Shown here one piece after another: positions 963-58,137 of a DNA stretch of 64,000 nucleotides. The DNA comes from Sphaerisporangium album (GTDB lineage: Bacteria > Actinomycetota > Actinomycetes > Streptosporangiales > Streptosporangiaceae): contig NZ_QOIL01000003.1 of NCBI RefSeq assembly GCF_003323745.1, positions 1-64,000 on the forward strand, read 5' to 3'. The translations under genes and the position numbers were made by a program. Below the pieces are notes generated by a model that did no database searches, was not told the origin of the DNA, and saw only the letters and a list, made by a program, of their open reading frames with translations. Each line of letters starts with the position of its first letter. Position 1 is the first letter of the stretch.

Positions 963-1117
963 TCATGCCTCAGCCCGGCCACCGCTGACCACTCATCTGG
1001 CACCGCGACCTGCACGAGGCCGGCCCCGCCAACGCCCTGAGGGTCGTGGCCGCCAAGGGCGCGAGCGGCCACCACGAGATCAACCGACCATCCCTATCGA
1101 CCAGGAAGAACAGTCCG

Positions 1118-2950
1118 ATGACCACGCCCCTCATGATCGACCGCGAAGGCACCCTCGACCGCGACGACGCCATCCACGTCCAACCCGACAGCCACGGCGG
1201 CTGGTACCTCACCGTGCACATCGCCAACGTCGCCGCCGCCCTCCAAGACGGCAGCACCTACGACACCCAGGCCCGTCACCGCGGCCACACCGTCTACGGC
1301 CCGACCTGGACTCGCAGCATGCTCCCCAAGGAGCTCGAACAGCAGCTCACCCTGCACGAGCACCGGCCCAATGCCACCCTCGCCATCACCCTGACCATCC
1401 GCGCCGACGGCACCGTCGAAGACACCTGGATCACCCGCGACACCCTGCGCGCCCCGGTCGCCATGTCCTACGACCTCGTCCCCGCTGCCCTGGCCGACTA
1501 CGCCCACCCACATCACACGACGCTCAGCCTCGCCGCACACCTCGCCACCACGCTGCTGAGCAAGCGCCGCGCCGACGGCGCGCTCGCCGTCTACGACCTC
1601 ATCCGGGGCTGGGCCACCAACGACGACGGACAGCTCATCAGGGTCGACGCCCCCGAACGCAACATCGGCTACATCATCGTCCAGGAGGCCATGATTGCTG
1701 CCAACGCGGCGCTCGCCGCCTGGGCCATTGAGCGCGACGTGCCGATCCTGTTCCGCAACCACACCGCCGCGGCCGCCACGCCACCCGTGCGCGATCTCGC
1801 CGCCGACCTCGACCACGTGATCGCCAGCGGCGTCACCAGCGCCTTCGAAGCGACACAGCGACGCCTGGCGCTGGTGATGCGGCCCGCCCTCTACGAATCG
1901 ACCGTGCGCGGCCACTACGCGCTCACCCTCCCCGCCTACAGCCACGCCACCTCGCCCCTGCGCCGCTACGCCGACCTCGTCACCCAACGGCAAATCATCG
2001 CCGCCCTCGACGGCCGCACCCCGCCGTACACCACAGGCGACCTCGACCAGATCGCCGACGAGCTCAACACCGCCGCCCGTGAACGACGTGAACGTCGCAG
2101 CCAGGCGCTCAAGGACCGCGCCCACACCGCGGCCCGCACGAAGGCCGCGACCGCCGACGACCTCGCCGACCTCACCCCCGCCCAGTTCGCCCCCGTCCTG
2201 AAACGCGCCTGCAAGGAGGGTGCCTACTCCGACGACCTCGCCGCCGAGGTCATCCGCCGCAGCCACGCCGACGAGCTCGCGCTGCTCGACCAGCACATGG
2301 TGCTGTCGGTGGCCACCGACCCGAGGTGGGCGCCCGCGCGGCGGGTACTGCTCGACCACGTCGCCGCCGACCCCCAGGACGCCGTCAGCCTCCTGAACAT
2401 GCGCTCCCAGCAGCACCGCTGCACGCCGGTCTCCTTCACCACCACCGTGCAGGAAGGCCCGCCGCCGCTGTTCACCGCGTTCGCCACGATGCAGCTCGAC
2501 AACGGCAGCGCCTGGGGAGCCGGCCGCCGTGCCCCGGTGAAGAAGCTCGCCCAGCAGCTTGCCGCCACCAGCCTCCTGGCGGCGCTCGCCGGCGTCGACG
2601 ACCCCACCGGGGACATCATCCCCTCCGAGTCGACCCCCGCCGAGGACCCCTTTCTATCCCCTGGCCTTCCGCCGGCACCGCCGCCCGGCCAGCATCCGGT
2701 GAGTTCCCTCACCGAGTACACGCACAAGGGGTACGCCTCTGACACCCAGTGGGACGTCAAGCGCACCGGGCCCGACCACGCGCCGAAGTTCACCGCGTGG
2801 GTCACCGCCACGATCCGCGGCCGCGGCGAGCTGACCGCGTCCGGACAGGCCGGGTCGAAGGCGGGGGCCCGCGAGCGCGCGGCCGCCGCGCTGCTTGAGC
2901 AGATCCACGCCGCTCCCCTTCCGCAGGTGGAGGTCTCCGATGTCGCCTAG
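1118..2950 (+). CDS. RNB-family 3'-5' exoribonuclease with C-terminal dsRBD
   Basis: This 610-residue protein has an RNase II/R catalytic domain in its first half and a double-stranded RNA binding domain at about residues 528-600. The metal-site motif is IDREGTLDRDDA, with Asp8, Asp14, Asp16 and Asp17 matching the four conserved aspartates of RNase II/R. The second signature, YSHATSPLRRYADLVTQRQ, lies at about residues 273-291. The family degrades RNA processively from the 3' end. The usual cold-shock and S1 domains are not seen; the dsRBD seems to supply RNA binding instead, which is unusual. AGGAAGAA at 1103-1110 supports the ATG at 1118, although an in-frame ATG exists at 1046. The gene overlaps the next by 11 bases. 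It may be the exonuclease partner of the Ro protein at 28.5 kb (inference). Confidence 0.93.
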   Translation: MTTPLMIDREGTLDRDDAIHVQPDSHGGWYLTVHIANVAAALQDGSTYDTQARHRGHTVYGPTWTRSMLPKELEQQLTLHEHRPNATLAITLTIRADGTVEDTWITRDTLRAPVAMSYDLVPAALADYAHPHHTTLSLAAHLATTLLSKRRADGALAVYDLIRGWATNDDGQLIRVDAPERNIGYIIVQEAMIAANAALAAWAIERDVPILFRNHTAAAATPPVRDLAADLDHVIASGVTSAFEATQRRLALVMRPALYESTVRGHYALTLPAYSHATSPLRRYADLVTQRQIIAALDGRTPPYTTGDLDQIADELNTAARERRERRSQALKDRAHTAARTKAATADDLADLTPAQFAPVLKRACKEGAYSDDLAAEVIRRSHADELALLDQHMVLSVATDPRWAPARRVLLDHVAADPQDAVSLLNMRSQQHRCTPVSFTTTVQEGPPPLFTAFATMQLDNGSAWGAGRRAPVKKLAQQLAATSLLAALAGVDDPTGDIIPSESTPAEDPFLSPGLPPAPPPGQHPVSSLTEYTHKGYASDTQWDVKRTGPDHAPKFTAWVTATIRGRGELTASGQAGSKAGARERAAAALLEQIHAAPLPQVEVSDVA

Positions 2951-12471: not shown

Positions 12472-12871
12472 GCAGCCCCCGCGACACACCGCCACCGGGG
12501 AGACCCGCGTCTACTGGATCCCCGACCTGCCCAACCCCGACGCGCCCACGGTCGCCGATCTCAACCGGCCGGACGCCGTTCTGCTCGGCACCGACCGCCC
12601 GCTGCTTACGATCATGATCGACGTCGGACCGTTCGTCCGAGCAGCCGATGGCGTCCAGCGTGCCCTGGCCGCGGCCGCGCGCACCCTGTTCCCGGGCCTT
12701 CTGGGCAAGACCTCCCGATGGCAGCACGAGATCGAGAACGGTCCCCAGTACGCCCGGCACCGGCGCCGCTGCCGCGCCTGCAACCCGGCCGGCAACCCGC
12801 GGCCGCTCCCGATCAACGGCCACGAGTACGCCCGCCGGCGCCGCGCCCGGGCCCGACGGAGGAACCGATGA
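12464..12871 (+). CDS. Hypothetical protein with arginine-rich tail
   Basis: This 135-residue protein has an alpha/beta N-terminal half, a HRRRCRACNP Cys pair and a very basic tail (RRRRARARRRNR). The tail suggests contact with nucleic acid. It sits immediately upstream of the Thg1-like gene, overlapping its ATG by 4 bases, so the two are co-translated and may work together; that is inference only. Confidence 0.7.
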   Translation: MPEQPPRHTATGETRVYWIPDLPNPDAPTVADLNRPDAVLLGTDRPLLTIMIDVGPFVRAADGVQRALAAAARTLFPGLLGKTSRWQHEIENGPQYARHRRRCRACNPAGNPRPLPINGHEYARRRRARARRRNR

Positions 12872-13665
12872 GCACAGACAAGACCGCCCTCGGGGACAGG
12901 ATGAAGGCCTACGAGGCCGTGACCCGGGCCCTGCTCCCGCGCCGTACCTACGCGATCATCCGCGTCGACATCCGCGCAGCGCACTCCTACCTACGCGGAG
13001 CCGACAAGCCGTTCGACAGCGACTTCATGACCGCCATGAACACCACCGCCCGGGCGCTGTGCGAAGAGGTCTCCGGCGCGGTGGTCGCCTACACCCAGTC
13101 CGACGAGATCAGCGTCTTGGCCACCGACTTCGGGTCCACACACACTCAGCCGTGGTTCGGCGGCGTCACAGCCAAGGTGGTGTCCATCTCCGCGTCGGCC
13201 GCGACCGCCGCGTTCAACACGGCCGAAGGCGGCCGCAACGGCGCCCTGGCCCTGTTCGACGCCCGGGTATTCACACTGCCGAACCCGGTCGAGGTGGCCA
13301 ACTACTTCGTCTGGCGGCAGCGGGACTGCATCCGCAACTCGATCTCCATGGCCGCGCAGGCCCGCTTCTCCGCTCGGCAGCTCCACGGGAAGAGCACCGG
13401 GGAGATGCAGGAGATGCTCTGGTCTGAGCACAACATCAACTGGAACGGCTACCCGGCCGACGCGAAACGGGGCCGCGTGTGCACCCGCACGACGGGGGAG
13501 CGGGAGGTCACCTTCGTCGACCGGCGCACCCACGAGGAGACCACGACCCTGGCGATCCGCTCGTGGTGGGAAACCGACGCGGCGCCGCACTTCACCGCAG
13601 AGCCGACCGGGTGGCTAGCCACCGTCATTCCGCCGCTGCCCGTGCTGCACCAGGAGCGATCGTGA
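12868..13665 (+). CDS. Thg1-like 3'-5' polymerase (tRNA-His guanylyltransferase family)
   Basis: This 265-residue protein is close to the usual length of bacterial and archaeal Thg1-like proteins, which add nucleotides to RNA in the 3'-5' direction and can repair truncated tRNA 5' ends. The motif RVDIRAAHSY corresponds to the family RxDGR metal site (Asp34), and YTQSDEIS gives Asp79 and Glu80 of the second metal site. A block near residues 188-200 (EHNINWNGYP, then KRGR) matches the family INxN / KRG region. The DGR glycine is replaced by isoleucine (DIR), a notable deviation. Known roles are 5'-end tRNA repair or G-1 addition; this protein's substrate is unknown. Confidence 0.92.
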   Translation: MSTDKTALGDRMKAYEAVTRALLPRRTYAIIRVDIRAAHSYLRGADKPFDSDFMTAMNTTARALCEEVSGAVVAYTQSDEISVLATDFGSTHTQPWFGGVTAKVVSISASAATAAFNTAEGGRNGALALFDARVFTLPNPVEVANYFVWRQRDCIRNSISMAAQARFSARQLHGKSTGEMQEMLWSEHNINWNGYPADAKRGRVCTRTTGEREVTFVDRRTHEETTTLAIRSWWETDAAPHFTAEPTGWLATVIPPLPVLHQERS

Positions 13666-21333: not shown

Positions 21334-21340
21334 GCCCATT

Positions 21341-21409
21341 CCCTAACGTTGTCCCTATATACGGACAATGTTAGGGCGACCCCTTAACAATGTCCATACG
21401 TACGGACAA
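21341..21409. promoter_or_regulatory. Paired operator, copy 1
   Basis: Two palindromes, TTGTCC-CTATATAC-GGACAA (21349-21368) and ATGTCC-ATACGTAC-GGACAA (21390-21409), start exactly 41 bp apart. The first has extra outer arms, CCCTAAC and GTTAGGG, giving a 36-bp palindrome at 21341-21376. The AT-rich centre is suited to a promoter. It lies upstream of the minus-strand gene at 21333. The regulator is not identified. Confidence 0.8.
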
Positions 21410-21437
21410 AGAAAACCGTCGGCCGGGAACCCGCCAC

Positions 21438-23842: not shown

Positions 23843-23903
23843 TTGTCCTGATGAGTGGACATTGTCCGGTTCGCTCGCTAACGTTGTCCGTATATAAGGA
23901 CAA
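23843..23903. promoter_or_regulatory. Paired operator, copy 2
   Basis: TTGTCC-TGATGAGT-GGACAT (23843-23862) and TTGTCC-GTATATAA-GGACAA (23884-23903) start exactly 41 bp apart. The second ends 26 bases before the ATG of the MoxR-type gene and overlaps a TATATAAGG promoter-like core. Confidence 0.8.
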
Positions 23904-23929
23904 AGTTTTCCACGAAGGAGGGCACCCGA

Positions 23930-25072
23930 ATGACCACTCCCGCGGCCCCCGCCACCCGGCTCCACAGTGGCGAGCTCCGCCGCCAGGTCGCCGCCTACCT
24001 CGCGGACAACCCCACCACCGACCACACCCCCACAGCCATAGCCCGCCACCTCAAGCGCTCCTCCGGAGCCGTCGGCAACGCCCTCAAGACCCTCGCCGCC
24101 GACGGCGCCGCCACCCAGACCTCGCCCAAGCCCCTGCGCTACAAGGCAACCGCCACCACCCGAGCCGCCGCCGCAGGCACCTCCGCCCCGGCCTCGGCCC
24201 CAGCCCCGGCACCCGCGCCCACCCCGGCCCCCGCCGCCGCGCCCCGCCCGGCCGCCCCCACCAGCGCCACGCCGGTCACCGGCCCCATCGCCCGGCCCAG
24301 CGGACTGCTCTACCACCCCCGCACCCTCTCGGGCATGCCCGACGTCACCGCCCTGCGCAAGCTCCGCGAGAACGGCGTCGCCGCCCTGCTGTACGGCCCG
24401 CCCGGCACCGGCAAGACCTCGGTGGTCGAGGCCGCCTTCGGCGACGTCATCACCGTCCAGGGCGACGGAGACACCACGGTCGCCGACCTGGTCGGCGAGT
24501 ACACGCTGACCGGCGACGGCAGGCCGGTGTTCATCCACGGCCCCCTCGTCCGGGCCATGCGCGAGGGCCGGGCCTTCTTCATCGACGACGCCACGCTGAT
24601 CCCACCGACGGTGCTCGCGGTGGTCTACCCCGCCATGGACGGCCGCCGCCAGATCATCATCAAGGCCAACGGCGGCGAGGTCGTCGACGCCGCCGAGGGG
24701 TTCTACGTGGTAGCCGGACACAACCCGGGCGTACACGGCGCGGTCCTCTCAGACGCCCTGGCCTCGAGGTTCGCCGCGCACATCAAAGTGACCAGCGACT
24801 ATCAGCTGGCGACCCAGCTCGGGGTGGACCGGCGGGCGGTGAAGGTCGCGCAGAACCTGGCCACGCGGATGGAGCAGGGGGAGTCGGGGTGGGCCCCGCA
24901 GCTGCGAGAGCTGCTCGCCTTCGCCAAGATCGCCGCCGCGCTGGGGGTGGACGCTGCGGCGGGGAACCTGATCACGATCGCGCCGGATGAGGACCGCGAG
25001 GTGGTGGCCACGGTGGTGCGCGAGGTGTTCGGCAAGCCGGTCGAGCCGCTGGCGCTGGGCGAGCGGATCTGA
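23930..25072 (+). CDS. MoxR/CobS-like AAA+ ATPase with N-terminal winged helix
   Basis: This 380-residue protein has an N-terminal winged-helix-like domain (LRRQVAAYLADN ... AIARHLKRSSGAVGNALKTL), an Ala/Pro-rich linker (about residues 83-117) and an AAA+ domain. Walker A is GPPGTGKTS (residues 156-164), Walker B is FFIDD (residues 216-220), and a GHNPG sensor-like motif lies near residue 262. MoxR-type ATPases remodel protein complexes with vWA-domain partners, and a vWA gene follows 145 bases downstream. The winged helix on a MoxR protein is unusual and may link it to DNA or RNA. It is controlled by a paired operator. Confidence 0.88.
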   Translation: MTTPAAPATRLHSGELRRQVAAYLADNPTTDHTPTAIARHLKRSSGAVGNALKTLAADGAATQTSPKPLRYKATATTRAAAAGTSAPASAPAPAPAPTPAPAAAPRPAAPTSATPVTGPIARPSGLLYHPRTLSGMPDVTALRKLRENGVAALLYGPPGTGKTSVVEAAFGDVITVQGDGDTTVADLVGEYTLTGDGRPVFIHGPLVRAMREGRAFFIDDATLIPPTVLAVVYPAMDGRRQIIIKANGGEVVDAAEGFYVVAGHNPGVHGAVLSDALASRFAAHIKVTSDYQLATQLGVDRRAVKVAQNLATRMEQGESGWAPQLRELLAFAKIAAALGVDAAAGNLITIAPDEDREVVATVVREVFGKPVEPLALGERI

Positions 25073-25138
25073 CCCCGGCCGCCCCGCCCCCGGACGGGCG
25101 GGGCGGCCGGGAGTCGCCGATGGCCAGCCTCAGATTCT

Positions 25139-25199
25139 TTGTCCGCACCTATGGACAATGTGCCGACCGACAACTACCTTTGTCCATACATAAGGACAA
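25139..25199. promoter_or_regulatory. Paired operator, copy 3
   Basis: TTGTCC-GCACCTAT-GGACAA (25139-25158) and TTGTCC-ATACATAA-GGACAA (25180-25199) again start 41 bp apart. The second ends 18 bases before the ATG of the vWA gene. The ATPase and vWA genes thus have separate but matching control regions. A G+C-rich hairpin just after the ATPase stop (around 25075-25110) may terminate the first transcript. Confidence 0.8.
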
Positions 25200-25217
25200 T
25201 GTTTTTGGAAGGCCCCC

Positions 25218-26948
25218 ATGACCAGCCACATCGCCCCCACCACCGCCACCCCTACCACGATCAGCGACCCCGCCTGGCTTCGCCTCTCCGCCGCCCTGAC
25301 CTGGGAAACCCCCGTCATCGCCGACCGCGATGACCTCATCGTCACCATCGCCCCCGGCGCAGGCCACGGCGCGCCCGCCTGCTTCCTCCCCACCCAGGCC
25401 CGGATCGAGCTCGACGGCGAACACCTCAAGATCCACCCCGGCAGCGCAACCCCCGACCGCGCCTCCGACCGCACCCGCTACCCCGCCGTCTGGGGAATGC
25501 TCACCCACGAATGCGCCCACGCCAAGCACTCGGTATGGGAGACCCCGACCGGCACCCCGGCCGACGTCGCCGCCGCCGCCGAGCTGCTCGAAGAGGCCCG
25601 CATCGAGGCCGCGCAGATCGGCCGCCGCCCCGACGACCGCCACTGGCTCCGCGCCAGCGCCCGCGAGATCGTCCTCGCCGACACCCACGCAGGCGACCCC
25701 ACCAAGGCCCCGGCCATGACCCCCCACGCCGCCGCCCACACCGCCGCGCTGCTCCTCGGCCGCGCCGACGGCGGCATCCTCACCCGCTCCGAGACCGCCC
25801 CCGTCGCCCGCGCCGTACGCGGCATCCTCGGCGACCGCACCCTGCGCAAGCTCCGCAAGATCTGGCGTGAGGCTCTCACGGTGGCCGACGGCGACGCCGC
25901 CGCCATGATCGAGCTCGGCCGCCGCTGGGTCGACATCCTCGGCCCCGACCCCGCCGCCAACCCTCCCGCCTCCGCCGCCGGCGCCAGCGGCGCACCGGCC
26001 GGGCCCTCCCCCCTCGCCGACGCCATCAACACCACCCTGGGCAAGGTCGACCGCGCCGTCGCCCGGCAGATGCCCTCCGCCTCCCCCGCCCAGAGGCCCA
26101 CCCCCGCCTCCGGCACCCCCTCGAGCGACCCCGCCGAGGAGGCCACCGCCCGCGTCGCCGACGCCGTGTTCGGCGGCGGCTCCACCACCGGCACGGCCGC
26201 CCCACTCGGCAACACCCGCGCCCCCGAGCCCGCCGAAGCCGCCGCAGCCCGCGCCCTGGCCCGCGCCCTCAGCACCGCCGGGATCCGCGACCGGGTCACC
26301 ACCAAGACCACCTCGCCCATCCCGCCCGGACGGCTCCGGATGCGCGGCGTCATCGCCCGCGAGGCCCAGCGCGCCGCCGGACGGATCCCGACCGCCGAGC
26401 CCTTCGCCCGCACCACCCGCAAGGTCGCCCCCGTGCCGCCGCTGCGCATCGGCATCGCCTGCGACGTCTCCGGCTCCATGTCCGCCTTCACCGGTCCCGT
26501 CGCCTCGGCCGCGTGGATCCTCGCCCAAGCCGCCCGCCACACCTCGGTGCCCACCGAGACCGCCACGGTGACCTTCGGCAACCAGGTACGGGCCATCACC
26601 CGCCCAGGGGTCGCCCCCGCCAAGGTGACCGAGTTCACCGCCCCCGACTCCTCCCACGCCATCGACACGGCGATCGACGCCCTGGACGGCGCGCTCGGCC
26701 TGGCCCGCCCGGGCGCGGCCCGGCTGCTGGTGATCGTGTCCGACGGGCGGTACGAGGCGGACCGCCGGATGGGCGGGCAGAAGCGGCTCGACCGGCTGCA
26801 GGCCTCCGGATGCGCGGTGCTGTGGCTGGCCACCGGAGGAAAGGACGAGCCGATGAAGGGCGCGACGGTGCACGTGCTGGCCGACCCGGCGGCGACGGCC
26901 ACCGCGATTGGGCGGGCAGCTACGGCCGCGCTGCGAGCGGCCCGGTGA
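25218..26948 (+). CDS. vWA-domain protein with HExxH metallopeptidase-like motif
   Basis: This 576-residue protein has LTHECAHAKHS near the N-terminus, in which His97-Glu98-x2-His101 is the HExxH zinc-protease pattern. A helical, Ala-rich middle follows. The C-terminal von Willebrand A domain has an intact MIDAS motif, DVSGSMS (Asp416, Ser418, Ser420), and the later residues expected of the fold. MoxR-linked vWA proteins are usual ATPase partners; similar 'predicted metallopeptidase plus vWA' arrangements exist, but activity is unproven. The ATG at 25218 has GGAAGG upstream. Confidence 0.88.
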   Translation: MTSHIAPTTATPTTISDPAWLRLSAALTWETPVIADRDDLIVTIAPGAGHGAPACFLPTQARIELDGEHLKIHPGSATPDRASDRTRYPAVWGMLTHECAHAKHSVWETPTGTPADVAAAAELLEEARIEAAQIGRRPDDRHWLRASAREIVLADTHAGDPTKAPAMTPHAAAHTAALLLGRADGGILTRSETAPVARAVRGILGDRTLRKLRKIWREALTVADGDAAAMIELGRRWVDILGPDPAANPPASAAGASGAPAGPSPLADAINTTLGKVDRAVARQMPSASPAQRPTPASGTPSSDPAEEATARVADAVFGGGSTTGTAAPLGNTRAPEPAEAAAARALARALSTAGIRDRVTTKTTSPIPPGRLRMRGVIAREAQRAAGRIPTAEPFARTTRKVAPVPPLRIGIACDVSGSMSAFTGPVASAAWILAQAARHTSVPTETATVTFGNQVRAITRPGVAPAKVTEFTAPDSSHAIDTAIDALDGALGLARPGAARLLVIVSDGRYEADRRMGGQKRLDRLQASGCAVLWLATGGKDEPMKGATVHVLADPAATATAIGRAATAALRAAR

Positions 26949-27022
26949 ACGGGCTCACCTCCCGGCCCTCGCCTGCGGGCGGGGGCCGGTCCTCTCTCGC
27001 CCGTGATCTCGTCCGCGATACA

Positions 27023-27792: not shown

Positions 27793-27893
27793 CCCCATCC
27801 ACCATCATAACGATCTGATCTCGGCATGGCCGTGTGTCCGTGGTGTCCGAAATCAACGTGTGAAATCCACGTCCACTCGCTAACGTGGAAATC

Positions 27894-28003
27894 AGTTCAT
27901 CGGGCCCGGAGTGGGCACGGGTCGAATGGGCGTCGGTTATCTCTGGTATAGATTCTCCCGGCGCTGTCTTACACATCCGTACCGACTCCCGGCCTGATGA
28001 ACT
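27894..28003 (+). ncRNA. Y-RNA-like RNA, unit A (short form)
   Basis: The 5' and 3' ends form a long stem: bases 27894-27918 with 27979-28003 pair with only a few mismatches. Next to it on the 5' strand lies GGGTCGAA (27919-27926), followed after five bases by GTCGGTTAT (27932-27940). On the 3' strand lies ACATCC (27973-27978). Such terminal stems with conserved bulged sequence bind Ro proteins. This unit has only about 30 bases between the strands and no tRNA-like part. A possible promoter core, TAACGT (27881), would start transcription at about the stem's 5' end. Confidence 0.75.
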
Positions 28004-28169
28004 GGTCAGATCTGGTGCCAGCACGGGTCGAAAGCTCGTCGGTTACCACTTCTAATGGGGTTGTCGCGGGTTCAAATCCCGCCGCAGGTTCGCCTGTGTA
28101 GCTCAGTTCGGCTAGAGCGCCTAAAACCCGGTGAGCGGCACCATATCCGTGCCGGCTCCAGATCTGATC
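28004..28169 (+). ncRNA. Y-RNA-like RNA, unit B, with permuted tRNA module
   Basis: The terminal stem pairs 28004-28027 with 28148-28169 (TCAGATCTGG is a perfect block). GGGTCGAA (28025) and GTCGGTTAC (28038) stand at the same 13-base offset as in unit A, with ATATCC (28143) opposite. The middle is a circularly permuted tRNA mimic: a T arm (GCGGG-TTCAAAT-CCCGC), an acceptor-like stem closed by a TTCG loop, then a D arm (TAGCTCAGTTCGGCTAGAGC). The split point corresponds to the anticodon. This is the arrangement described for bacterial YrlA RNAs. Confidence 0.85.
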
Positions 28170-28313
28170 GTTCGTCATCCCGGCCGGTGGCACGGGTCGA
28201 ATCCATGTCGGTTATCGCAGGTTCGATTCCTGTCGGCCCCCCGCGCGGGGCCGACGCCCAGTTGGCGGGCACCCGGCCGGACCCCACATCCGTGCCATCG
28301 GCCGGGATGACGA
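28170..28313 (+). ncRNA. Y-RNA-like RNA, unit C, with permuted tRNA module
   Basis: The terminal stem is nearly perfect over about 24 bp (28171-28194 with 28290-28313). GGGTCGAA (28194), GTCGGTTAT (28207) and ACATCC (28286) are conserved. The core has a T arm (GCAGG-TTCGATT-CCTGT), an acceptor-like stem (CGGCCCC / GGGGCCG) closed by a short loop, and a compact D-arm-like hairpin (GCCC-AGTTGGC-GGGC). It follows unit B with almost no spacer. Confidence 0.85.
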
Positions 28314-28320
28314 GCCCCCA

Positions 28321-28465
28321 GGGGAGAGCGGGTCGAAGTCACGTCGGTTATCGGGAGCCGGGTACGCAGGTTCGAATCCTGCCGCCCTGCACTATGCGGG
28401 GCGTCGTCTAGTGGCCCAGGACACCGGCTTAAACACCGGCAGGCACCACCACATCCGCTCTCCCC
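28321..28465 (+). ncRNA. Y-RNA-like RNA, unit D, with permuted tRNA module
   Basis: An 11-bp perfect terminal stem (GGGGAGAGCGG 28321-28331 with CCGCTCTCCCC 28455-28465) brackets GGGTCGAA (28330), GTCGGTTAT (28343) and ACATCC (28451). The core is the clearest tRNA mimic: a T arm (GCAGG-TTCGAAT-CCTGC), an acceptor stem (CGCCCTGC / GCGGGGCG) closed by ACTAT, a D arm (GTCGTCTAGTGGCCCAGGAC), then CCGG strands in the anticodon-stem position. It ends 51 bases before the Ro gene. Confidence 0.87.
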
Positions 28466-28476
28466 CCATCCCTCCC

Positions 28477-28511
28477 ACATCCGCCACTCCGGCGGGTCGA
28501 ACACACGGAGG
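28477..28511 (+). promoter_or_regulatory. Ro-site mimic over the Ro gene ribosome site
   Basis: ACATCC (28477) and GGGTCGAA (28494) occur once more but in reverse order, joined by a 5-bp hairpin, CCGCC-ACTCC-GGCGG. The ribosome site GGAGG (28507-28511) falls where GTCGG occurs in the Y RNAs. A Ro protein binding here would cover the translation start at 28517, suggesting autoregulation. Confidence 0.5.
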
Positions 28512-28516
28512 CCGCC

Positions 28517-30223
28517 ATGCCGCGTGACCCCCTCGCGTCCATCACCACCCACGCCACCCCGCAGACCCAGCGCATCCCCGGCCGGACCGACCAGGTCCGC
28601 AACGCCGCCGGCGGCTACGTCTACCCCAAGGACACCTGGACCCGGCTCGAGGACTTTCTCATCCTGGGCACCACCGGCGGCACCTACTACGTCGGCGAGG
28701 ACAAGCTCACCGCCGAGAACGCGGGCCTGCTGTTTCAGGCCATCGCCGAGGACGGCCCGCGCGTCGTGCAGCTGCTCACCGACATCTCCACCGCGCGGCC
28801 GCCGCGCGCGCCGAAGAACCGGCCCGCGCTTTTCGCGCTGGCGGCATGTCACGCCAAGGGTGACGCGGCGACCAGGCAGGCCGCGAAGGACGCGCTGCGG
28901 AAGGTCGCCCGGACCACGGACCATCTCAGCACGTGGTTCGGCTACCTGAAGAACCTCGGGGGCAAGCAGACAAGCCGGGGTACGGCGCCCGTGGTTGGCT
29001 CCGCCCTGCGGAACGCGATCAGCGGCTGGTTCCTGGCGGCTGACGTCGACGACGTGGCGTTCCGGGCGTGCAAGGCGATGCAGCGGAAGACCCCGAACGG
29101 TGAGGCGTTCCACCTACGGGACGCCCTGCGTATCGCCCATCCCAACCGCCGTCGCGGCGCCGGGTCGCGACAGCTGCTGGACGCGCTGGACCGCCGTGTC
29201 CTGCTCGGCTGGATCACGGGCAACGTGCCTGACGACTTTGCCCGCGATGAGCTGCCTGTTGTGGACAAGTTCCTCACCGCCAAGGCCGTCACGACGCCCG
29301 AGCAGGCGGTCCGCATCGTGACCGAGGCCCGGGTGCCGTGGGAGTTCCTCCCCGACGCCATGCTGCGCGAGGCGATCGTGTGGGACGCCCTGGTGGACAC
29401 GATCGGCATGACCGCCCTGCTCCGCAACCTCGCGCGGATGACCCGGCTCGGCACGCTCAAGCCGCTCGGCGACGCCACCCGGCGCGCCGTCGCCCGGCTC
29501 ACCGACGCCGGCGCCGTCCACCGGGCGCGGATCCACCCCATGGACGCCTGGCTCGCCCTGCGCGTCTACGCCTCCGGCCGCTCTCAGCCCAACCCGCGTG
29601 CCGACGTCCACACCTGGAAGCCGGTCCCGGCGATCCTGGACGCCCTGGAGGAGACCTACGACCTGGCGTTCGGCACCGTCGAGCCATCCGGCAAGCGGCT
29701 GCTGGTCGCCGTCGACTCCTCCGGCTCCATGAGCGGTACCCACTACACCATCGGCCCGGTCATCGTGGGCGGTTCGCCGATCGGCAGCCCGTACGAGGTC
29801 GGCTGCGCGATGGCCGTCACGCTCGCCCGGATCGAGAAGGGCAACGTCCACGTCATCGACGTCGACACCACCGTGCACACCTCCAAGGTGACCCCGCGGA
29901 CCAACCTCCGCGAGATCGCATCCTGGCGGCCATCCGGCGGCGGCACGGACCTGTCCCTGCCCTTCGCCTACGCCCAGCGCGAGCGCCTCGAGGTCGACGG
30001 GTTCGTCGTCTTCACCGACAACGAGACCTGGGCCGGCCGTTCCCACCCCTCTCAGGCCCTGACCACCTACCGCGGCTCGATCAACGCGGGCGCCCGCACG
30101 ATCGTGGCGGCGATGACCGCGACCGGCCACAGCATCGGCGACCCGCACGACGACGGCGTGCTCAACATCGCCGGGATGGACGCCTCGCTGCCCTTGGTGG
30201 TGAACGGCTTCATCCGCGGATAG
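28517..30223 (+). CDS. Ro60-like TROVE-domain RNA-binding protein
   Basis: This 568-residue protein has the length and layout of bacterial Ro (Rsr) proteins: an N-terminal TROVE domain of helical repeats (about residues 20-370), beginning with NAAGGYVYP and continuing through LRNLARMTRLG, then a vWA-like domain with an intact MIDAS motif, DSSGSMS (Asp400). Ro proteins form a ring that holds misfolded RNA 3' ends and binds Y RNAs on its outer surface. In Deinococcus, Rsr and a Y RNA tether polynucleotide phosphorylase for RNA decay. Four Y-RNA-like genes lie immediately upstream. The ATG at 28517 has GGAGG upstream. Confidence 0.94.
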   Translation: MPRDPLASITTHATPQTQRIPGRTDQVRNAAGGYVYPKDTWTRLEDFLILGTTGGTYYVGEDKLTAENAGLLFQAIAEDGPRVVQLLTDISTARPPRAPKNRPALFALAACHAKGDAATRQAAKDALRKVARTTDHLSTWFGYLKNLGGKQTSRGTAPVVGSALRNAISGWFLAADVDDVAFRACKAMQRKTPNGEAFHLRDALRIAHPNRRRGAGSRQLLDALDRRVLLGWITGNVPDDFARDELPVVDKFLTAKAVTTPEQAVRIVTEARVPWEFLPDAMLREAIVWDALVDTIGMTALLRNLARMTRLGTLKPLGDATRRAVARLTDAGAVHRARIHPMDAWLALRVYASGRSQPNPRADVHTWKPVPAILDALEETYDLAFGTVEPSGKRLLVAVDSSGSMSGTHYTIGPVIVGGSPIGSPYEVGCAMAVTLARIEKGNVHVIDVDTTVHTSKVTPRTNLREIASWRPSGGGTDLSLPFAYAQRERLEVDGFVVFTDNETWAGRSHPSQALTTYRGSINAGARTIVAAMTATGHSIGDPHDDGVLNIAGMDASLPLVVNGFIRG

Positions 30224-45402: not shown

Positions 45403-45463
45403 TTGTCCTTACATATGGACGACGTTAGCTCAACCGATAAACATTGTCCATACATACGGACAA
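45403..45463. promoter_or_regulatory. Paired operator, copy 4
   Basis: TTGTCC-TTACATAT-GGACGA (45403-45422) and TTGTCC-ATACATAC-GGACAA (45444-45463) start 41 bp apart. The first also has CTAACG / CGTTAG outer arms, as in copy 1. It lies between the minus-strand DUF6011 gene and the terminase gene and may control both. Confidence 0.8.
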
Positions 45464-45509
45464 AGAAAAAAGAGGGGGGTCGGCCGGCCCAGACCCCGGC
45501 AGGGGGGCC

Positions 45510-48218
45510 ATGACCGCCACCATCTGGGACATCGCCGCCCGCAGGGCCGCCGCCATCTACGGCACCCCCACCCACCGCTGGACCACCCCCGGCCAGCTCG
45601 CCGCCGCGATCGACCCCAGCACGGTCCAGACCGAAGCGCTCGACCTCATCGACGAGGCGCTCGTCGACGTCGCCGAAGGCCGCTGCGACCGCCTGATCAT
45701 CACCGTCCCGCCGCAGGAAGGGAAGTCCACCCGGGTCACCACCGTCGGCCCGCTGTGGATGCTGACCCGCAACCCCGACCTGCGCATCGCGATCGCCTGC
45801 TACGCCCAGGACCTGGCCGATGAGTTCGGCCGCAACATCCGCAACCACATCACCAGCAACGACGGCACCGACGGCAGTCTCGACCTCGGCCTGCGCATCG
45901 CCCCCGACAACGGCGCCGCGCGCCGCTGGCGCATCGCCGGCCGCCGGGGCGGCGTCCGCGCCGTCGGCCTCACCGCCGGCCTCACCGGCAAAGCCGCCGA
46001 AGCGATCTTCATCGACGACCCGATCGCCGACCTCATCCAGGCCAACTCCACCGCCTGGCGCGAGGTCGTCTGGGGCTTCTGGACGGCCGTCGCCAACACC
46101 CGCCTGGCCCCCGGCGCGCCCGTGGTAGTGATCTTGACTCGCTGGCATGAGGACGACCTCGTCGGCCGCCTCCTGGCCGCCGAGGACGCCCACCGCTGGC
46201 GCGTGATCAACATCCCCGCGCAGGCCGACCACGACCCGGCCAAGGGCGAGACCGACCCGCTCGGCCGCGAACCCGGCGAGTACCTCAACTCCGCGCGCGG
46301 CCGCACCGTCGAGCAGTGGGAGCAGATCCGCGTCGCTGTCGGCTCCCGGGTCTGGAACGCCCTCTACCAGGGGCGGCCCACGGCACCCGAGGGCGATCTG
46401 TTCGAACGCGGCTGGTGGCGCGAGTACACCTCGCCGCGGTGGATCGTCCGCGACGACGGCTCCTACTGGGCGATCAACCCCGACGAGGTCATCCAGTCCT
46501 GGGACATGGCCTTCAAGGACACCGACAGCAGCGACTGGGTCGTCGGCCAGGTCTGGGCCCGGTGGGGCCTGCAGGTCTACCTGCTCGACCAGGTCCGCGA
46601 GCGCCTGTCGTTCGTCGAGACCCGCAAAGCCGTCCGCCGCCTGGCCGTCAAGTGGCCCCAGGCCACACTGAAGCTCGTCGAGGACAAGGCCAACGGCACC
46701 GCCGTCATCAACAGCCTGCAGCGCACCGTGGCCGGGCTTATCGCAGAAGAACCCCACGGCAGCAAGTACGCGCGCGCCGCCGCGATCTCCCCCTTCGTCG
46801 AGGCCGGGCAGGTTCTTCTTCCGGCTCCCGAGCTCGCCCCGTGGGTCGGCGAGTTCATCGACGAATGCGTCATAGGATCGACTGTGATCATTACACGACA
46901 CGGTCTGATTCCTGCCAGCGAAATCAAAGTCGGCGACGAGGTCCTCACACATCGCGGACGCTTCCGCCCTGTCACCGCCACGTCCGTACGGGAAGCACCC
47001 GAGCTCGTCACAATTCGGGCGAAGACCCTCGACCCGATCACCCTCACCCCGAATCACCCGGTATTCGCTATGACCGTGCGCCGTAACGTCGCCGGATTAC
47101 TGGCGCCCATAGGCAAGGAATGGGTGCCCGCTGGCGAGGTGTCGTGCCGGACAGCCGTGCTCTCAGCGCGCGGCGAGATCGAACCATCGCACAAGCCCCA
47201 CCACGCGATGACCTTTCCCGTCTTGGACCCGGACCAGGAGTTGCAGGAGATCGATCTACGCGCTTGGTTCGACATAAAGCTCCCCGAGGCCAAGACGGAG
47301 GGGCTCGGCAGGAAGACGTATGCCATCGTGGACGACGGCGAGACCATCCGCATCAACTCCGCCCGCGCCCAGTCGCTCCGGTATCGCCAAGTGCTTGACC
47401 GACGCTTCGGCCGGATCTGCGGTCTCTACCTCGCCGAAGGCAGTTACAGCACCGGCCGCGTCTTCTGGTCGCTTCACAAGGACGAGACCGAGTTTGCGGA
47501 GGAGATCACCTCATTCCTCCGAGAACGCTGGGGGATCAACAGCCACGTCGCCAGCCTAGGAAAGGCCAACCCGAACTGCATCAACGTGACCGCGAGCCTC
47601 AGGCGGATGGAGCGCTTCTTCGCTGAGTTCGGTCGAGGAGCGGCGAACAAGCGCATCCCGTGGTGGGCTTGGGAGGCACCTGCAGCGTTCATCGAAGGCT
47701 TGGTCTCCGGCTGGCTGGATGGCGACGGCCACAAGACGGCACAAGGCTGGAAGGGGACCACCACGTCCCCCCACCTGGCATGGGGCATCAGGCTCCTGGC
47801 AACCCGGCTGGACAAGTGGGCGCTGTTGTCCTGGTCAGAGCCCCGTAAGCCCTCGTTGATCGGCAAGCACACGGTCACGCCACGCCATGCCACGTTCAGC
47901 GTGGACTTACTCGACCGGGAAAAGGCGACTCACGTGTTCGACGGCGAACATGTCGGCTTGTGGGTGAAGGAGACCGGGCCTGCCGGCAACGGCACCGTCT
48001 ACAACTTCACCGTCGCCGAAGACGAGTCATACGTGACCACGGGCGGCGCCGTACACAACTGCGCGTCCTTCCCCAACGGCCGCCACGACGACCAGGTCGA
48101 CGGCACGTCTCAAGCGATCAACCGGCTCCTGCTCGCGCCGCTGCTCGCCGGCACCCTCATCGTCGGCGACGACGAGTTGGACGAGGAGCTGGACGACTAC
48201 GAGATCAGCCCGATCTGA
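45510..48218 (+). CDS. terL: Terminase large subunit with intein
   Basis: The precursor is 902 residues; after removal of a 398-residue intein the terminase would be 504. The ATPase part has the Walker A-like PPQEGKST (Lys72) and Walker B AIFIDDP (Asp169-Asp170). The nuclease part has SWDMAFKDTDSSDW near residue 330 and HDDQVDG after the intein. It packages phage DNA into proheads through the portal. A strong AGGGGGG precedes ATG 45510. The intein sits just before the conserved FPNGRHDDQVDG region, a typical insertion in an active site. A longer start would translate the operator. Confidence 0.95.
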   Translation: MTATIWDIAARRAAAIYGTPTHRWTTPGQLAAAIDPSTVQTEALDLIDEALVDVAEGRCDRLIITVPPQEGKSTRVTTVGPLWMLTRNPDLRIAIACYAQDLADEFGRNIRNHITSNDGTDGSLDLGLRIAPDNGAARRWRIAGRRGGVRAVGLTAGLTGKAAEAIFIDDPIADLIQANSTAWREVVWGFWTAVANTRLAPGAPVVVILTRWHEDDLVGRLLAAEDAHRWRVINIPAQADHDPAKGETDPLGREPGEYLNSARGRTVEQWEQIRVAVGSRVWNALYQGRPTAPEGDLFERGWWREYTSPRWIVRDDGSYWAINPDEVIQSWDMAFKDTDSSDWVVGQVWARWGLQVYLLDQVRERLSFVETRKAVRRLAVKWPQATLKLVEDKANGTAVINSLQRTVAGLIAEEPHGSKYARAAAISPFVEAGQVLLPAPELAPWVGEFIDECVIGSTVIITRHGLIPASEIKVGDEVLTHRGRFRPVTATSVREAPELVTIRAKTLDPITLTPNHPVFAMTVRRNVAGLLAPIGKEWVPAGEVSCRTAVLSARGEIEPSHKPHHAMTFPVLDPDQELQEIDLRAWFDIKLPEAKTEGLGRKTYAIVDDGETIRINSARAQSLRYRQVLDRRFGRICGLYLAEGSYSTGRVFWSLHKDETEFAEEITSFLRERWGINSHVASLGKANPNCINVTASLRRMERFFAEFGRGAANKRIPWWAWEAPAAFIEGLVSGWLDGDGHKTAQGWKGTTTSPHLAWGIRLLATRLDKWALLSWSEPRKPSLIGKHTVTPRHATFSVDLLDREKATHVFDGEHVGLWVKETGPAGNGTVYNFTVAEDESYVTTGGAVHNCASFPNGRHDDQVDGTSQAINRLLLAPLLAGTLIVGDDELDEELDDYEISPI
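46866..48059 (+). mobile_element. Intein with LAGLIDADG-type homing domain
   Basis: The intein begins at Cys453 (CVIGSTVIIT, block A) and ends with VHN before Cys851. The block B TLTPNHPVF histidine is present. Two LAGLIDADG-like helices (LYLAEGSYS, and GLVSGWLDGDGHK with the acidic catalytic position) lie in the middle. Block F/G reads VYNFTVAEDESYVTTGG. All splice residues appear intact: Cys1, His-Asn at the end and Cys+1. It should be removed by protein splicing and may still home into intein-free terminase genes. Confidence 0.93.
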
Positions 48219-48237: not shown

Positions 48238-49944
48238 GTGGGGATCGCCTCCCGCCTGCAGGAAGCGTGGTATCGGTTCACAGGCAGAACCGAACTCGCC
48301 GAGGTCAAGCGCGCCTACCGGCTCAGCGTCCAGCACCTGGAAGAGTCCGTCGCCGGGCTCGAGGCCCGGATGTACGAGCCGGGCTGGCAGCTCATGACGG
48401 CCCAGGCCGAGCAGGAATTCACGCGCGAAGGCCTCCGGCAGATCACCTCGGTCAACCGCGTCATGGCCCTGAAGAATCCCCTGATCAAAAGGGGTATCGC
48501 GCTGCGCACCGCGTACGTGTGGGGCCAGGGCCTCCAGGTCACCGCGCGCTCGGCCGGCCAGAAGAGCGGGCCACGGCGCCGCGGCCAGCAGGACGTCAAC
48601 GCCGTCGTCCAGGCATTCATGGATGACGAGGGCAACCGGCGCGCGCTGTTCTCCCAGCAGGCCCACGAGGACCTCGAGCGGGCACTGGGCACCGACGGCA
48701 ACCTGTTCATCGCCGCCTTCACCAACCCGCGCACCGGCCGCGTCCAGGCACGCATCGTCCCCTGGGACGAGATCACCGAGGTCATCACCAACCCCGACGA
48801 CGCCTCCGAGCCCTGGTTCTACCGCCGGTGCTGGACGACCCCCCAGGGCGCCATGCAGGAGGCCTACTACCCGGCCATGGGGTACTGGCCCAAGGTCCGG
48901 CCCCGGGTGATCGGATTCCGGGGGATCGGCGACGGCGCGGTCCTCCCGGTCCGCTGGGACTCCCCGGTCAAGCACATCTCCGTCAACGGCCCCCTGCACT
49001 GGAAGTGGGGGCTCGGCGACGTCTACGCCGCGATCGACTGGGCCAACGCGTACCGGGAATTCCTCACCGACTGGTCCCGCCTGATCAAGGCGCTGTCCCG
49101 GTTCGCCTGGCGGCTCACCAGCAAGGGCTCCAAGCAGGCCGCCGCCAAGACCAAGATGGCGACCGCGCCGACCACCGACCCGCTGACCGGCGAGCCGCGC
49201 TTCGCCGGCGCCACCGCGTTCATGCCACCCGACATGGCGCTCGAGGCGATCCCCAAGTCGGGCGCGACGATCGACGCCGAATCGGGGCGGCCGCTCGCGG
49301 CGATGACCGCCGCGGCGCTGGACGTCCCGGTGACCATGCTGCTCGGCGACCCCGGCACGACCGGCGCACGCGCGGTGGCCGAGACCCTCGACCAGCCCAC
49401 CGAGCTGGCCATGAACATGCGGCGCGAGCTGTGGGCAGACGTCCTGCGGACGATCTTCAACTACGTGATCGACGCCGCCGTCAAGGCTCCCGACGGCCCG
49501 CTCAAGGGCATCGTCAAGCGCGACCCCGACGACCGGGAGATCATCGAGCTCGCCGGGAAGACCGACCGCACGATCGACATCACCTGGCCGTCCCTGGACT
49601 CGATCGATGCCGCGCAACTCGTCAAGGCGATCGTCGAAGCCGACAGCACGCAGTACGTGCCGCCGCTGGTCGTAGTCCGGCTGCTGCTGCAGGCGCTCGG
49701 TGTCCGCGACGTCGACGAGATCCTGGCCACGTTGATGGACGACCAGGGCAACTTCGTCCGCCCGGACGGCGCGGGCGGCGGCGCAGGCCAAGCGGCCATG
49801 GACGCCTTCCGGCAGGGCCGCGATCCCGCGGCCGCGTTCGGCGGCGGCCGCGACAATCCCCCAGACCCGGCCGGCCCGGGCGGCGGGGCGCCCGGTGACG
49901 CCGAGCAGGGCAAGCCGGCGGAGAGAGAACGGGTGGCCGCATGA
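48238..49944 (+). CDS. Phage portal protein
   Basis: This 568-residue protein fits a portal: an N-terminal wing/stem region (NRVMALKNPLIKRGIALRTA, GTDGNLFIAAFTNP), the long central helical part (DWANAYREFLTDWSRLIKAL) and TAAALDVPVTMLLGDPGTT. The C-terminus is Gly/Pro-rich (residues about 515-568). The portal forms the dodecameric DNA channel. GAGGGAGG precedes the GTG at 48238. It lies between terminase and MuF genes as expected. Confidence 0.92.
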   Translation: MGIASRLQEAWYRFTGRTELAEVKRAYRLSVQHLEESVAGLEARMYEPGWQLMTAQAEQEFTREGLRQITSVNRVMALKNPLIKRGIALRTAYVWGQGLQVTARSAGQKSGPRRRGQQDVNAVVQAFMDDEGNRRALFSQQAHEDLERALGTDGNLFIAAFTNPRTGRVQARIVPWDEITEVITNPDDASEPWFYRRCWTTPQGAMQEAYYPAMGYWPKVRPRVIGFRGIGDGAVLPVRWDSPVKHISVNGPLHWKWGLGDVYAAIDWANAYREFLTDWSRLIKALSRFAWRLTSKGSKQAAAKTKMATAPTTDPLTGEPRFAGATAFMPPDMALEAIPKSGATIDAESGRPLAAMTAAALDVPVTMLLGDPGTTGARAVAETLDQPTELAMNMRRELWADVLRTIFNYVIDAAVKAPDGPLKGIVKRDPDDREIIELAGKTDRTIDITWPSLDSIDAAQLVKAIVEADSTQYVPPLVVVRLLLQALGVRDVDEILATLMDDQGNFVRPDGAGGGAGQAAMDAFRQGRDPAAAFGGGRDNPPDPAGPGGGAPGDAEQGKPAERERVAA

Positions 49945-50159
49945 GCCTGCACCTGCTCCCCGCGGGCGAGGTCCTCGCCCACACCACCTCCACCTCCTGC
50001 CCGTGCCGGCCTCGCCAGACGCTGGTGACCCACGACGGCGCGCGCCGCCAGGCCGTGGTGCACGGCCACGTCCCCCCGGGCGGAGGCGGCGATGGCGATC
50101 ACCGAGCGGACCCTGGCCCTGGTCCGGGAGATGCGGGCGAGCCTCGACCGGATCGTTGA
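49941..50159 (+). CDS. Small phage protein between portal and MuF
   Basis: This 72-residue protein (SLHLLPAGEVLAHTTSTSCP-C, then VVHGHV) starts at an ATGA overlap with the portal gene and ends inside the MuF gene. Similar short proteins stand between portal and MuF in actinophages. The C-terminal third is low complexity, so the end may not be meaningful. Confidence 0.6.
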   Translation: MSLHLLPAGEVLAHTTSTSCPCRPRQTLVTHDGARRQAVVHGHVPPGGGGDGDHRADPGPGPGDAGEPRPDR

Positions 50160-51168
50160 CGACCAGACCCGGGCGACCACCAAGGCATGGGTCCGCGCGT
50201 GGGACGAGCTCATCCGCGTGTTCAACGAAGCCGCCGACGAGCTCATCGCCGCGGCGACCGGCGGCCGGTGGCCCTCCCGCCGGCAGGTCGCCCGCTCCCA
50301 GCGCGTCGAGCGCGCGCTGGATCTGGCCGCGCGCAGCCTCGGCGAGCTCGCCCTCAAGGCCTCCAACGACGTCGCCCAGGCCGCCTGGCAGGCCGTGCAC
50401 CTCGCCGTCGAGGCCACCCTGCCGATCCTGCGCTCCCAGATGCCGGCCAGCCCCCGCGCGCAAGCGGGCATCCGGTTCGACCGGATCGACGAGGCCGCCG
50501 TCGAGGCGATCGTGCGCCGGACCACCCAGCAGATCACCGCGCGGCACCGGCCGCTGTCGGCCGACGCCACCGAGGCCATGCGCCGCGAGCTGGTCCGCGG
50601 CGTCGTCGTCGGCGCCAACCCGCGCGAAGCCGCCCGGCGGATGGTCGACCGGTGCCAGGGCGCGTTCGCGGGCGGCCTGACCCGCGCGGTGACCATCGCC
50701 CGCACCGAGATCATCAGCGCACATCGGGAGGGCGCGCGCGCCGCCCAGGACGCCAGCTCCTCGACCCTCGCCGGGTGGGTGTGGACAGCGGAGCTCAAAG
50801 CGCGCACGTGCGCATCATGCTGGGCTCAGCACGGCCGGGTCCACCCGCTGAAGGAGCCGGGTCCGCTGGATCATCAGTCCGGCCGGTGCGCCCGCACGCC
50901 CAAGACGAAGACCTGGCGCGAGCTCGGCATCGATCTGGACGAGCCGGACGATGTGATCCCCGACGCCCGCGTGGTCTTCGCCGCGCTGCCGCGAGCGGAC
51001 CAGTTGAAGATCATGGGCCCTCGTCGGCTGCAACTGCTGGACGCCGGCGAGATCACGTGGGATGACATCTCCGAGCGGCGAGAGAACCCGGAGTGGCGGC
51101 CGTCCTACCATGTCCGCTCGGTTCGCGATCTGGAGCAGCTCGCGGCTGATCGCACCAGTTCGGCATGA
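50092..51168 (+). CDS. MuF-like minor head protein
   Basis: This 358-residue protein is a MuF/SPP1 gp7-type head morphogenesis protein. It has a helical N-terminal part and the conserved block TRAVTIARTEIISAHREGAR, then WVWTAELKARTCASCWAQHG and a DHQSGRC motif. Such proteins enter the prohead with the portal. The C-terminal 45 residues (RRLQLLDAGEITWDDISERR) are matched by a second, isolated copy at 52.5 kb, beyond the HNH gene, so this gene's tail appears to have been replaced. Confidence 0.9.
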   Translation: MAITERTLALVREMRASLDRIVDDQTRATTKAWVRAWDELIRVFNEAADELIAAATGGRWPSRRQVARSQRVERALDLAARSLGELALKASNDVAQAAWQAVHLAVEATLPILRSQMPASPRAQAGIRFDRIDEAAVEAIVRRTTQQITARHRPLSADATEAMRRELVRGVVVGANPREAARRMVDRCQGAFAGGLTRAVTIARTEIISAHREGARAAQDASSSTLAGWVWTAELKARTCASCWAQHGRVHPLKEPGPLDHQSGRCARTPKTKTWRELGIDLDEPDDVIPDARVVFAALPRADQLKIMGPRRLQLLDAGEITWDDISERRENPEWRPSYHVRSVRDLEQLAADRTSSA

Positions 51169-58113: not shown

Positions 58114-58137
58114 GTTCTCCACGTTCAAGGAGATTTG

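Follow-up and report, generated by a model that had tools for sequence, protein, structure and literature searches.

Ro ribonucleoproteins (RNPs), such as those of D. radiodurans Rsr and vertebrate Ro60, are built on a protein with TROVE and vWA domains that is encoded beside Y RNAs. Bacterial Y RNAs of the YrlA type (Rfam RF02553), on which Chen et al. 2014 is reportedly the main paper, are characterized by a basal stem, linkage to Ro genes, and a tRNA-like domain. Outside the Ro field, the autogenous operators of ribosomal proteins mimic rRNA sites. The locus described here has something in common with each. It encodes a TROVE and vWA protein next to Y RNAs, but in contrast to the Rsr and Ro60 RNPs its Ro is prophage-encoded and the messenger leader contains a Y-like hairpin. 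Basal stem, Ro-linked genes, and tRNA-like domain (in units B–D) are as in YrlA, whereas the four-unit array, the scores under 69, and a unit (A) that lacks the tRNA-like domain are not. As with ribosomal-protein operators, an RNA-binding protein would recognize, near the Shine-Dalgarno (SD) sequence of its own messenger, a copy of the site present in its partner RNA, the differences being that the partner is a Y RNA, that the site is small and order-reversed, and that repression is predicted. We consider it likely that the prophage carries a Ro RNP module, comprising four Y RNA genes and ro, in which an order-reversed hairpin of Y RNA motifs before the SD would act as the operator for self-repression by Ro.

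The stretch of DNA analyzed (the window) is the first 64 kb of a 590-kb contig (C23) in a 9.3-Mb actinomycete genome, the nearest named relatives of which, judged by Ro, are Sphaerisporangium and Nonomuraea. The features at the locus are as follows.

27881-27886, plus strand: possible -10 box TAACGT, separated by 6 nt from the 5' end of unit A, read from the sequence
27893-28004, plus strand: Y RNA unit A, with a 28-nt terminal stem and without a tRNA-like domain (arms, motifs, fold z -7.6)
28004-28169, plus strand: Y RNA unit B, in which T arm, closed acceptor-like stem, and D arm follow one another in permuted order (YrlA 41.2 bits, z -5.9)
28172-28313, plus strand: Y RNA unit C, in which T arm and closed acceptor-like stem are present and the D arm is weak (YrlA 25.8 bits, z -5.9)
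28321-28465, plus strand: Y RNA unit D, with a D arm resembling tRNA-Glu and a T arm resembling tRNA-Arg (z -4.2, folded from 28318)
28479-28501, plus strand: Ro leader hairpin, an order-reversed Y motif pair (motif scan, predicted fold, covariance model 41 bits)
28507-28511, plus strand: Shine-Dalgarno GGAGG, 5 nt past CGAA, with the AUG 5 nt further on
28517-30223, plus strand: Ro60/Rsr homolog ro, 568 aa, with TROVE and Ro60 vWA domains (domain search, PDB sequence match)

The protein encoded by ro matched PF25045 (vWA_Ro60) with 137.8 bits (cut-off 27.7) and PF05731 (TROVE) with 74.4 bits (cut-off 23), and its best PDB sequence match was D. radiodurans Rsr (2nvo, E 3.4e-79), aligned nearly end to end. 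Residue H208 aligned to H187 of Ro60 and was invariant among 13 aligned Ro proteins; according to passages of PMC11277228, the H187S substitution in Ro60 abolishes Y RNA binding. No Ro gene other than ro at 28517-30223 was found in the 9.3-Mb host genome.

The original prediction that the Ro locus is mobile was borne out by terminase, portal, head protease, and capsid genes located 17–30 kb downstream, and by a viral genome of 93.7 kb in IMG/VR (L202), the Ro gene and leader of which are identical to those of the window. The phage structural genes are the following.

45444-48218, plus strand: large terminase subunit containing an intein-like Hint insert (prophage context)
48238-49944, plus strand: portal protein (phrog_10963, E 9.7e-123)
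50092-51168: head protein (prophage context)
58135-59292, plus strand: major head / head maturation protease protein (phrog_133, phrog_4523)

A relative of the portal gene lay near ro (13 kb) in 1/22 other genomes (G212), which indicates that a related prophage also carries Ro; at that locus (G212:C1:3916120-3932835), the portal gene is 62% identical to that of the window.

Several other genes and repeats of the prophage were recorded. The terminase (45444-48218, plus strand) may carry an intein, as suggested by a weak Hint_2 match at residues 475-537 that is below the Pfam cut-off. An RNB (RNase II/R-type) exonuclease that carries a fused dsRNA-binding motif at its C-terminus is encoded at 1046-2950 (plus strand), and a chaperone-like pair, consisting of a MoxR-like AAA ATPase and, after it, a CoxE-type vWA protein, lies upstream of ro at 23930-26948 (plus strand). 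The RNB-dsRBD exonuclease was rejected as a fixed Ro partner, with weak matches in 12/22 other Ro genomes and none near ro (0/22). The MoxR-like/CoxE-type pair had no match in 53 related loci, MoxR being beyond the 3-kb flank of most. More generally, tblastn with twelve window proteins gave no match in the 53 loci for the genes flanking ro as a system, within flanks of at most 3 kb (45 loci), 1.5 kb (five), or up to ~17 kb (three), shorter at contig ends, so that window genes at a greater distance from ro (MoxR, aldolase, prophage genes) were scarcely covered. Palindrome-like repeats around TTGTCCNTANNTANGGACAA occur at 21340-21413, 23875-23907, and 25130-25203, as well as at 27020 and 45441; these sites lie between phage genes, are twice paired 41 bp apart, and are possibly repressor operators.

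The four tandem Y RNA units span 27893-28465, ahead of the prophage Ro gene. The motif set previously claimed for each unit, namely GGGTCGAA, GTCGGTTAY at a 13-base offset, and A(C/T)ATCC, was found again in full: a motif scan placed GGGTCGAA at 27919, 28025, 28194, and 28330 and A(C/T)ATCCG at 27973, 28143, 28286, and 28451, with GTCGGTTA 13 bases after GGGTCGAA in 4/4 units. The terminal arms are 28 nt and 86% complementary in unit A (27893-27920/27977-28004), 21 nt and 90% complementary in B (28006-28026/28147-28167), 24 nt and 96% complementary in C (28172-28195/28290-28313), and 11 nt and 100% complementary in D (28321-28331/28455-28465). In folding predictions, every unit outperformed 200/200 dinucleotide shuffles by a wide margin (z of -7.6 for A, -5.9 for B and C, and -4.2 for D; 0/200 shuffles as good for each). 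The possible -10 box ahead of unit A is of the form TANNNT, the actinobacterial -10 consensus; a sigma-70 scan found no promoter.

It had also been proposed that complementarity of the stems is kept despite sequence change and that this reflects selection on RNA structure. In a set of 149 distinct Y units drawn from 71 loci, 57-87% of units were paired at arm positions 3-10, outside the conserved core, compared with 40-70% when 3' arms were swapped among the 149 units; the former range is an underestimate caused by a script that assigned the wrong 3' arm to some last units, including unit D of the window. Since pairing exceeds the shuffled-arm level, selection on the Y stem is supported. Among Y units, the first two pairs beyond the core hardly vary.

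Rfam covariance models agreed with the original prediction in part. Unit B (41.2 bits, E 1.6e-7, 901 bases searched) and unit C (25.8 bits, E 0.0044) matched YrlA (RF02553) but below its gathering score of 69, and units A and D gave no YrlA match; unit A weakly matched the Deinococcus Y RNA RF01053 (22.3 bits, E 0.25, below the gathering score of 80), and the Rfam search gave no Y RNA match for unit D. At gathering thresholds an Rfam search of the whole window returned no matches, and ARAGORN called no tRNA on the window DNA. We therefore refer to the units as YrlA-like rather than as members of RF02553, their scores being under the gathering threshold. The permuted order of T arm, closed acceptor stem, and D arm predicted for units B to D is clear in B and D and partial in C, where the D arm is weak, and the architecture seen in B and D is that given for YrlA in passages of PMC8394870; unit A is without a tRNA-like domain. 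Features by which bacterial (YrlA-like) Y RNAs are recognized are thus found here, as the array adjoins a Ro60/Rsr gene and its units have a long basal stem with a common motif and a tRNA-like domain (B and D, partially C). These results support the identification of the four units as Y RNA-type genes linked to a genuine Ro homolog, the RNAs themselves being predicted. The array is of an already known type.

Two further expectations were not upheld. A cluster of four Y RNAs on one replicon had appeared striking, yet in a count with a strict motif finder over 52 related loci, including the window, there were no units at 2 loci, one at 11, two at 15, three at 15, and four at 9; arrays of several units are thus usual and the cluster of four is nothing special. 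The suggestion that different mimics recruit different tRNA enzymes was unsupported, and a single tRNA identity per mimic was rejected, as the D and T arms within one unit resemble different host tRNAs and the mimics look mosaic: the best host tRNA was Glu for the D arm and Arg for the T arm of unit D, and His and Gly, respectively, for unit B. These matches, which are suggestive only, come from locally aligning the arms with the 5' ends and the 3' ends of 71 tRNAs that ARAGORN predicted at 58 tRNA loci. A phage-encoded Thg1-type tRNA-His guanylyltransferase is located at 12718-13665 (plus strand) of the window, and it is the D arm of unit B that is most like host tRNA-His. In phage Moab, a possible Y RNA (L187:14380) lies ~2 kb upstream of ro, within a tRNA array.

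The motif scan recovered five copies of each motif strand, not four, the fifth pair being located between unit D and the start codon. This copy, which is absent from the original prediction and which we regard as the main finding, has A(C/T)ATCC at 28477 and GGGTCGAA at 28494, in the opposite order, in the Ro leader. The element at 28479-28501 reads ACATCCGCC-actcc-GGCGGGTCGAA, within a wider span (28475-28503) of CCACATCCGCC-ACTCC-GGCGGGTCGAACA. Its predicted fold is a 7-bp stem, AUCCGCC/GGCGGGU (28479-28485/28491-28497), with a 5-nt loop (28486-28490), CAC directly 5', and unpaired CGAA (28498-28501) directly 3'. The motif pair ACAUCC // GGGUCGAA is common to all four Y RNAs and the leader. 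In the Y RNAs GGGUCGAA comes first and ACAUCC last, whereas the leader has ACAUCC ahead of its partner strand and a loop capping the far end of the stem; the reversed order with a closing loop therefore gives the same paired core, flanked by CGAA 3' and by CAC 5'. The Y RNAs have a second helix beyond CGAA, which the leader may not. In isolation the window leader folded only slightly better than shuffles (z -1.35, 19/200 shuffles as good).

The hairpin is not confined to the window. A generalized finder detected it in 75/179 non-redundant Ro leaders against 3.4 expected from shuffles, and the first finder in 65/147 against 1.05, in leader sets that consist of the best matches listed for a few Ro queries and do not sample Ro genes evenly. 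Neither finder made use of the two bases preceding the stem, yet these were AC, AU, or UU in 71/75 hairpins compared with 6/68 shuffle hits, and they are the bases at the equivalent place in Y RNAs. The outer 5-bp stem took 17 forms among the 75 hairpins (for example, AUCCG/CGGGU, GCCCA/UGGGC, GCUCG/CGAGC, and GUUCA/UGAAC), full pairing being no independent proof since pairing was itself a selection criterion. Bacterial leaders commonly contain short hairpins, and nucleases would have to excise the Y RNAs if these are on the ro transcript, so the element might be a general 5' stabilizer, processing site, or standby structure that resembles the Y motif by chance. We regard this as very unlikely, given that the first finder detected the hairpin at only 1/172 other putative SD+ATG sites of the same loci and that both CGAA and the AC/AU/UU flank belong to the Y motif. 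The hairpin is a conserved Y-like element before the SD, specific to Ro leaders among the sites examined.

These counts depend on how the leader sets were composed. For the 179-leader set, 70/249 leaders were removed as redundant, three more were without a usable start, and L677, L679, L703, L705, L719, L731, L740, L775, and L779 were removed by hand as partial, of which L679 is in fact nearly full length. The leader set of the first motif script dropped eight duplicates (L025, L037-L043) and one leader without a recognized start, and the 80-locus set dropped six loci without a start and one that was too short. Flagged hairpins in L099 and L127 were judged false; in L029, L103, L125, L044, and L135 a hairpin is present but fails the 3' rule of the generalized finder; and two leaders were left out of the count, L116 with a mismatch at its first pair and L122 with a loop of 16 nt. 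The leader of L099 (Spongiactinospora), one paralogous copy, seemingly has a Y RNA T arm fused to the leader motif (CCCGCCTGGGCGGATCGAAC), as if by deletion.

Phages carry the hairpin as well, among them the Streptomyces phages Faust, Beuffert, Phredrick, StarPlatinum, and Riptide, and, by eye only, Samisti12 (L191); mycobacteriophage Alice is without it and Rhodococcus phage Trina is doubtful. In a group of metagenomic phages, the leader reads ACCUU-GCUCGUGG-guu-UCACGAGC-CGAA-AAGGAG-AUG, with the stem changed on both sides. Y RNAs with GAGCCGAA were present upstream of Ro in other phages (L550, L551, L582, and L602). Two leader-pattern scans of viral contigs gave mostly chance matches, with 9/120 and 1/120 of the matches listed falling within 60 nt before a Ro gene. 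The last 25 nt before the AUG in L274 and L276 read ACCCU-GAAAGG-AGGGU-CGAA-AUG, with a probable SD in the hairpin loop or stem.

An alternative origin for the element is that it is a vestige with no role in the messenger, in which the 3' end of a lost Y unit has been joined to the 5' start of another. Junctions of neighboring units likewise put the 3' motif before the 5' motif (28141-28203, 27971-28034, and 28284-28339, scoring 17.5-19.3 bits), and the first two pairs beyond the core hardly vary among Y units in any case. However, loops were short, at 3–7 nt in 75/75 hairpins (the finder allowed 3–9), the stem ended 14–25 nt before the AUG in 65/75, the hairpin was kept in 31/50 non-redundant leaders of the family under the strict rule of the generalized finder, and it recurs in phages without a Y unit directly before ro (Moab, Faust). 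We accordingly judge a vestige to be unlikely.

Within the family, an alignment of 35 leaders showed TCCGC, GCGGG, and CGA to be invariant, with variable loops of 3–6 nt and A-U, G-U, or G-C at stem pair 1. Although 99.2% of cells were paired, 124/500 shuffles equaled the leader covariation, and covariation within the family is weak since five of the seven pairs never vary. With R1, a covariance model of these leaders, the 9.3-Mb host genome contained one match at E<=0.05, the Ro leader of the window (41 bits), and over 297 family genomes the 27 best matches were all Ro leaders, the first exception scoring 33.2 bits. As R1 was trained on the 35 family leaders, mostly the same ones recovered, high scores follow by construction and the useful result is that there were no equally good sites elsewhere. 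A held-out Polyangiaceae leader scored 19.1 bits in the right place, with several Y-unit junctions equally high in that search, and R1 missed leaders of another actinomycete family (L046) and of Streptomyces phage Moab (L089), both of which the motif script found. Control of other messengers by the same element was considered and rejected, as an SD and start codon followed none of the eight lower-scoring non-Ro R1 matches inspected by eye. The string ATCCGC-N3..16-GCGGGTCGAA by itself was also set aside, being too loose as a signature (matches in 128/297 genomes).

Leaders and Y RNAs of the same locus tend to agree in sequence. The leader hexamer was common to, on average, 76.5% of the Y units at its own locus compared with 59.6% after permutation (0/5000; 49 loci), a difference inflated by relatedness among the 49 loci. 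The informative loci are L201 and L208, in which nine Y-unit matches and both leaders all carry the variant GGUUGA, and the leader of L248 has AGCCGG, as does one of two Y units there. The hexamer differs between leader and Y units in Stanwilliamsviridae phages, L044, and L120.

The compact hairpin was absent from 104/179 leaders under the generalized rule, including those of Herbidospora and four mycobacteriophages examined. Of these 104, 22 have a complete Y RNA whose 3' arm begins no more than 60 nt from the AUG, compared with none at a control site 300 nt inside the gene; three of the 22 (L029, L103, and L203) have a hairpin missed by the rule, leaving 19. The two arrangements are not exclusive, as such proximity of a Y RNA 3' arm was also seen in 25/75 hairpin leaders, and closeness of a Y RNA alone therefore cannot explain absence of the hairpin. 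According to the scripts, 78 leaders have neither arrangement; L044 and L135 are among them despite having been counted by the first finder. One might speculate that, at starts abutted by a Y RNA only, a Y RNA still joined to the messenger could act as operator.

We infer that the motif pair ACAUCC // GGGUCGAA is a Ro-binding site because it is the part common to all units and because H208, the counterpart of Ro60 H187, is conserved. A copy of this Y RNA element is conserved near the SD in Ro leaders, as an operator would be, provided that the element serves as a Ro site. In the proposed mechanism, Y RNA would compete with the leader for Ro: with Y RNA in excess over Ro, the protein would be occupied and the ro messenger translated, whereas with Ro in excess, free Ro would bind the leader, its ring would cover the SD, and initiation would be blocked. 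Ro output would thereby follow the supply of Y RNA, in the way that the output of ribosomal proteins is adjusted to rRNA. We favor occlusion by the bound ring over intrinsic SD sequestration, which was predicted for the window but rejected as a general feature, because pairing between SD and flank was no better than with shuffled flanks (0.63 vs 0.61 over 61 leaders) and the window leader folds with a z of only -1.35.

Ro could alternatively bind the leader and alter the fate of the messenger, through decay by a tethered exonuclease such as PNPase, or through protection. In passages of PMC8058203 and PMC8394870, D. radiodurans Y RNA links Rsr to PNPase and directs decay of structured RNA, and the prophage encodes an RNB exonuclease with a dsRNA-binding domain. 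The leader, however, copies the stem motif and not the tRNA-like domain, which is the PNPase-binding part according to passages of PMC8394870; the nearness of the hairpin to the SD suggests an effect on initiation; and a relative of the RNB gene was near ro in 0/22 other genomes. An effect on messenger fate thus appears rather unlikely. Returning to repression of initiation by Ro, we are inclined, if only somewhat, to extend it beyond this prophage: Ro of bacteria and phages may be widely controlled by a Y RNA decoy built into the messenger, either as a strand-reversed hairpin or as an abutting complete Y RNA, such that Ro synthesis would depend on free Y RNA, an arrangement kept across distant lineages.

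A literature search of titles and the beginnings of abstracts returned no account in which a Y-like leader controls a bacterial Ro gene, and papers outside that search may describe such control. As far as the literature was searched, the leader element is new: Ro is predicted to regulate its own synthesis through a strand-reversed copy of the site on its RNA partner. An operator of this Y-like kind on the ro messenger would provide a direct and testable answer to why the partnership between Ro and Y RNA is fixed and how Ro levels are set. If the prediction is true, the element defines a very small natural Ro ligand of ~25 nt, useful for structural work, and the hairpin would be a signature for finding Ro systems in unannotated phages.
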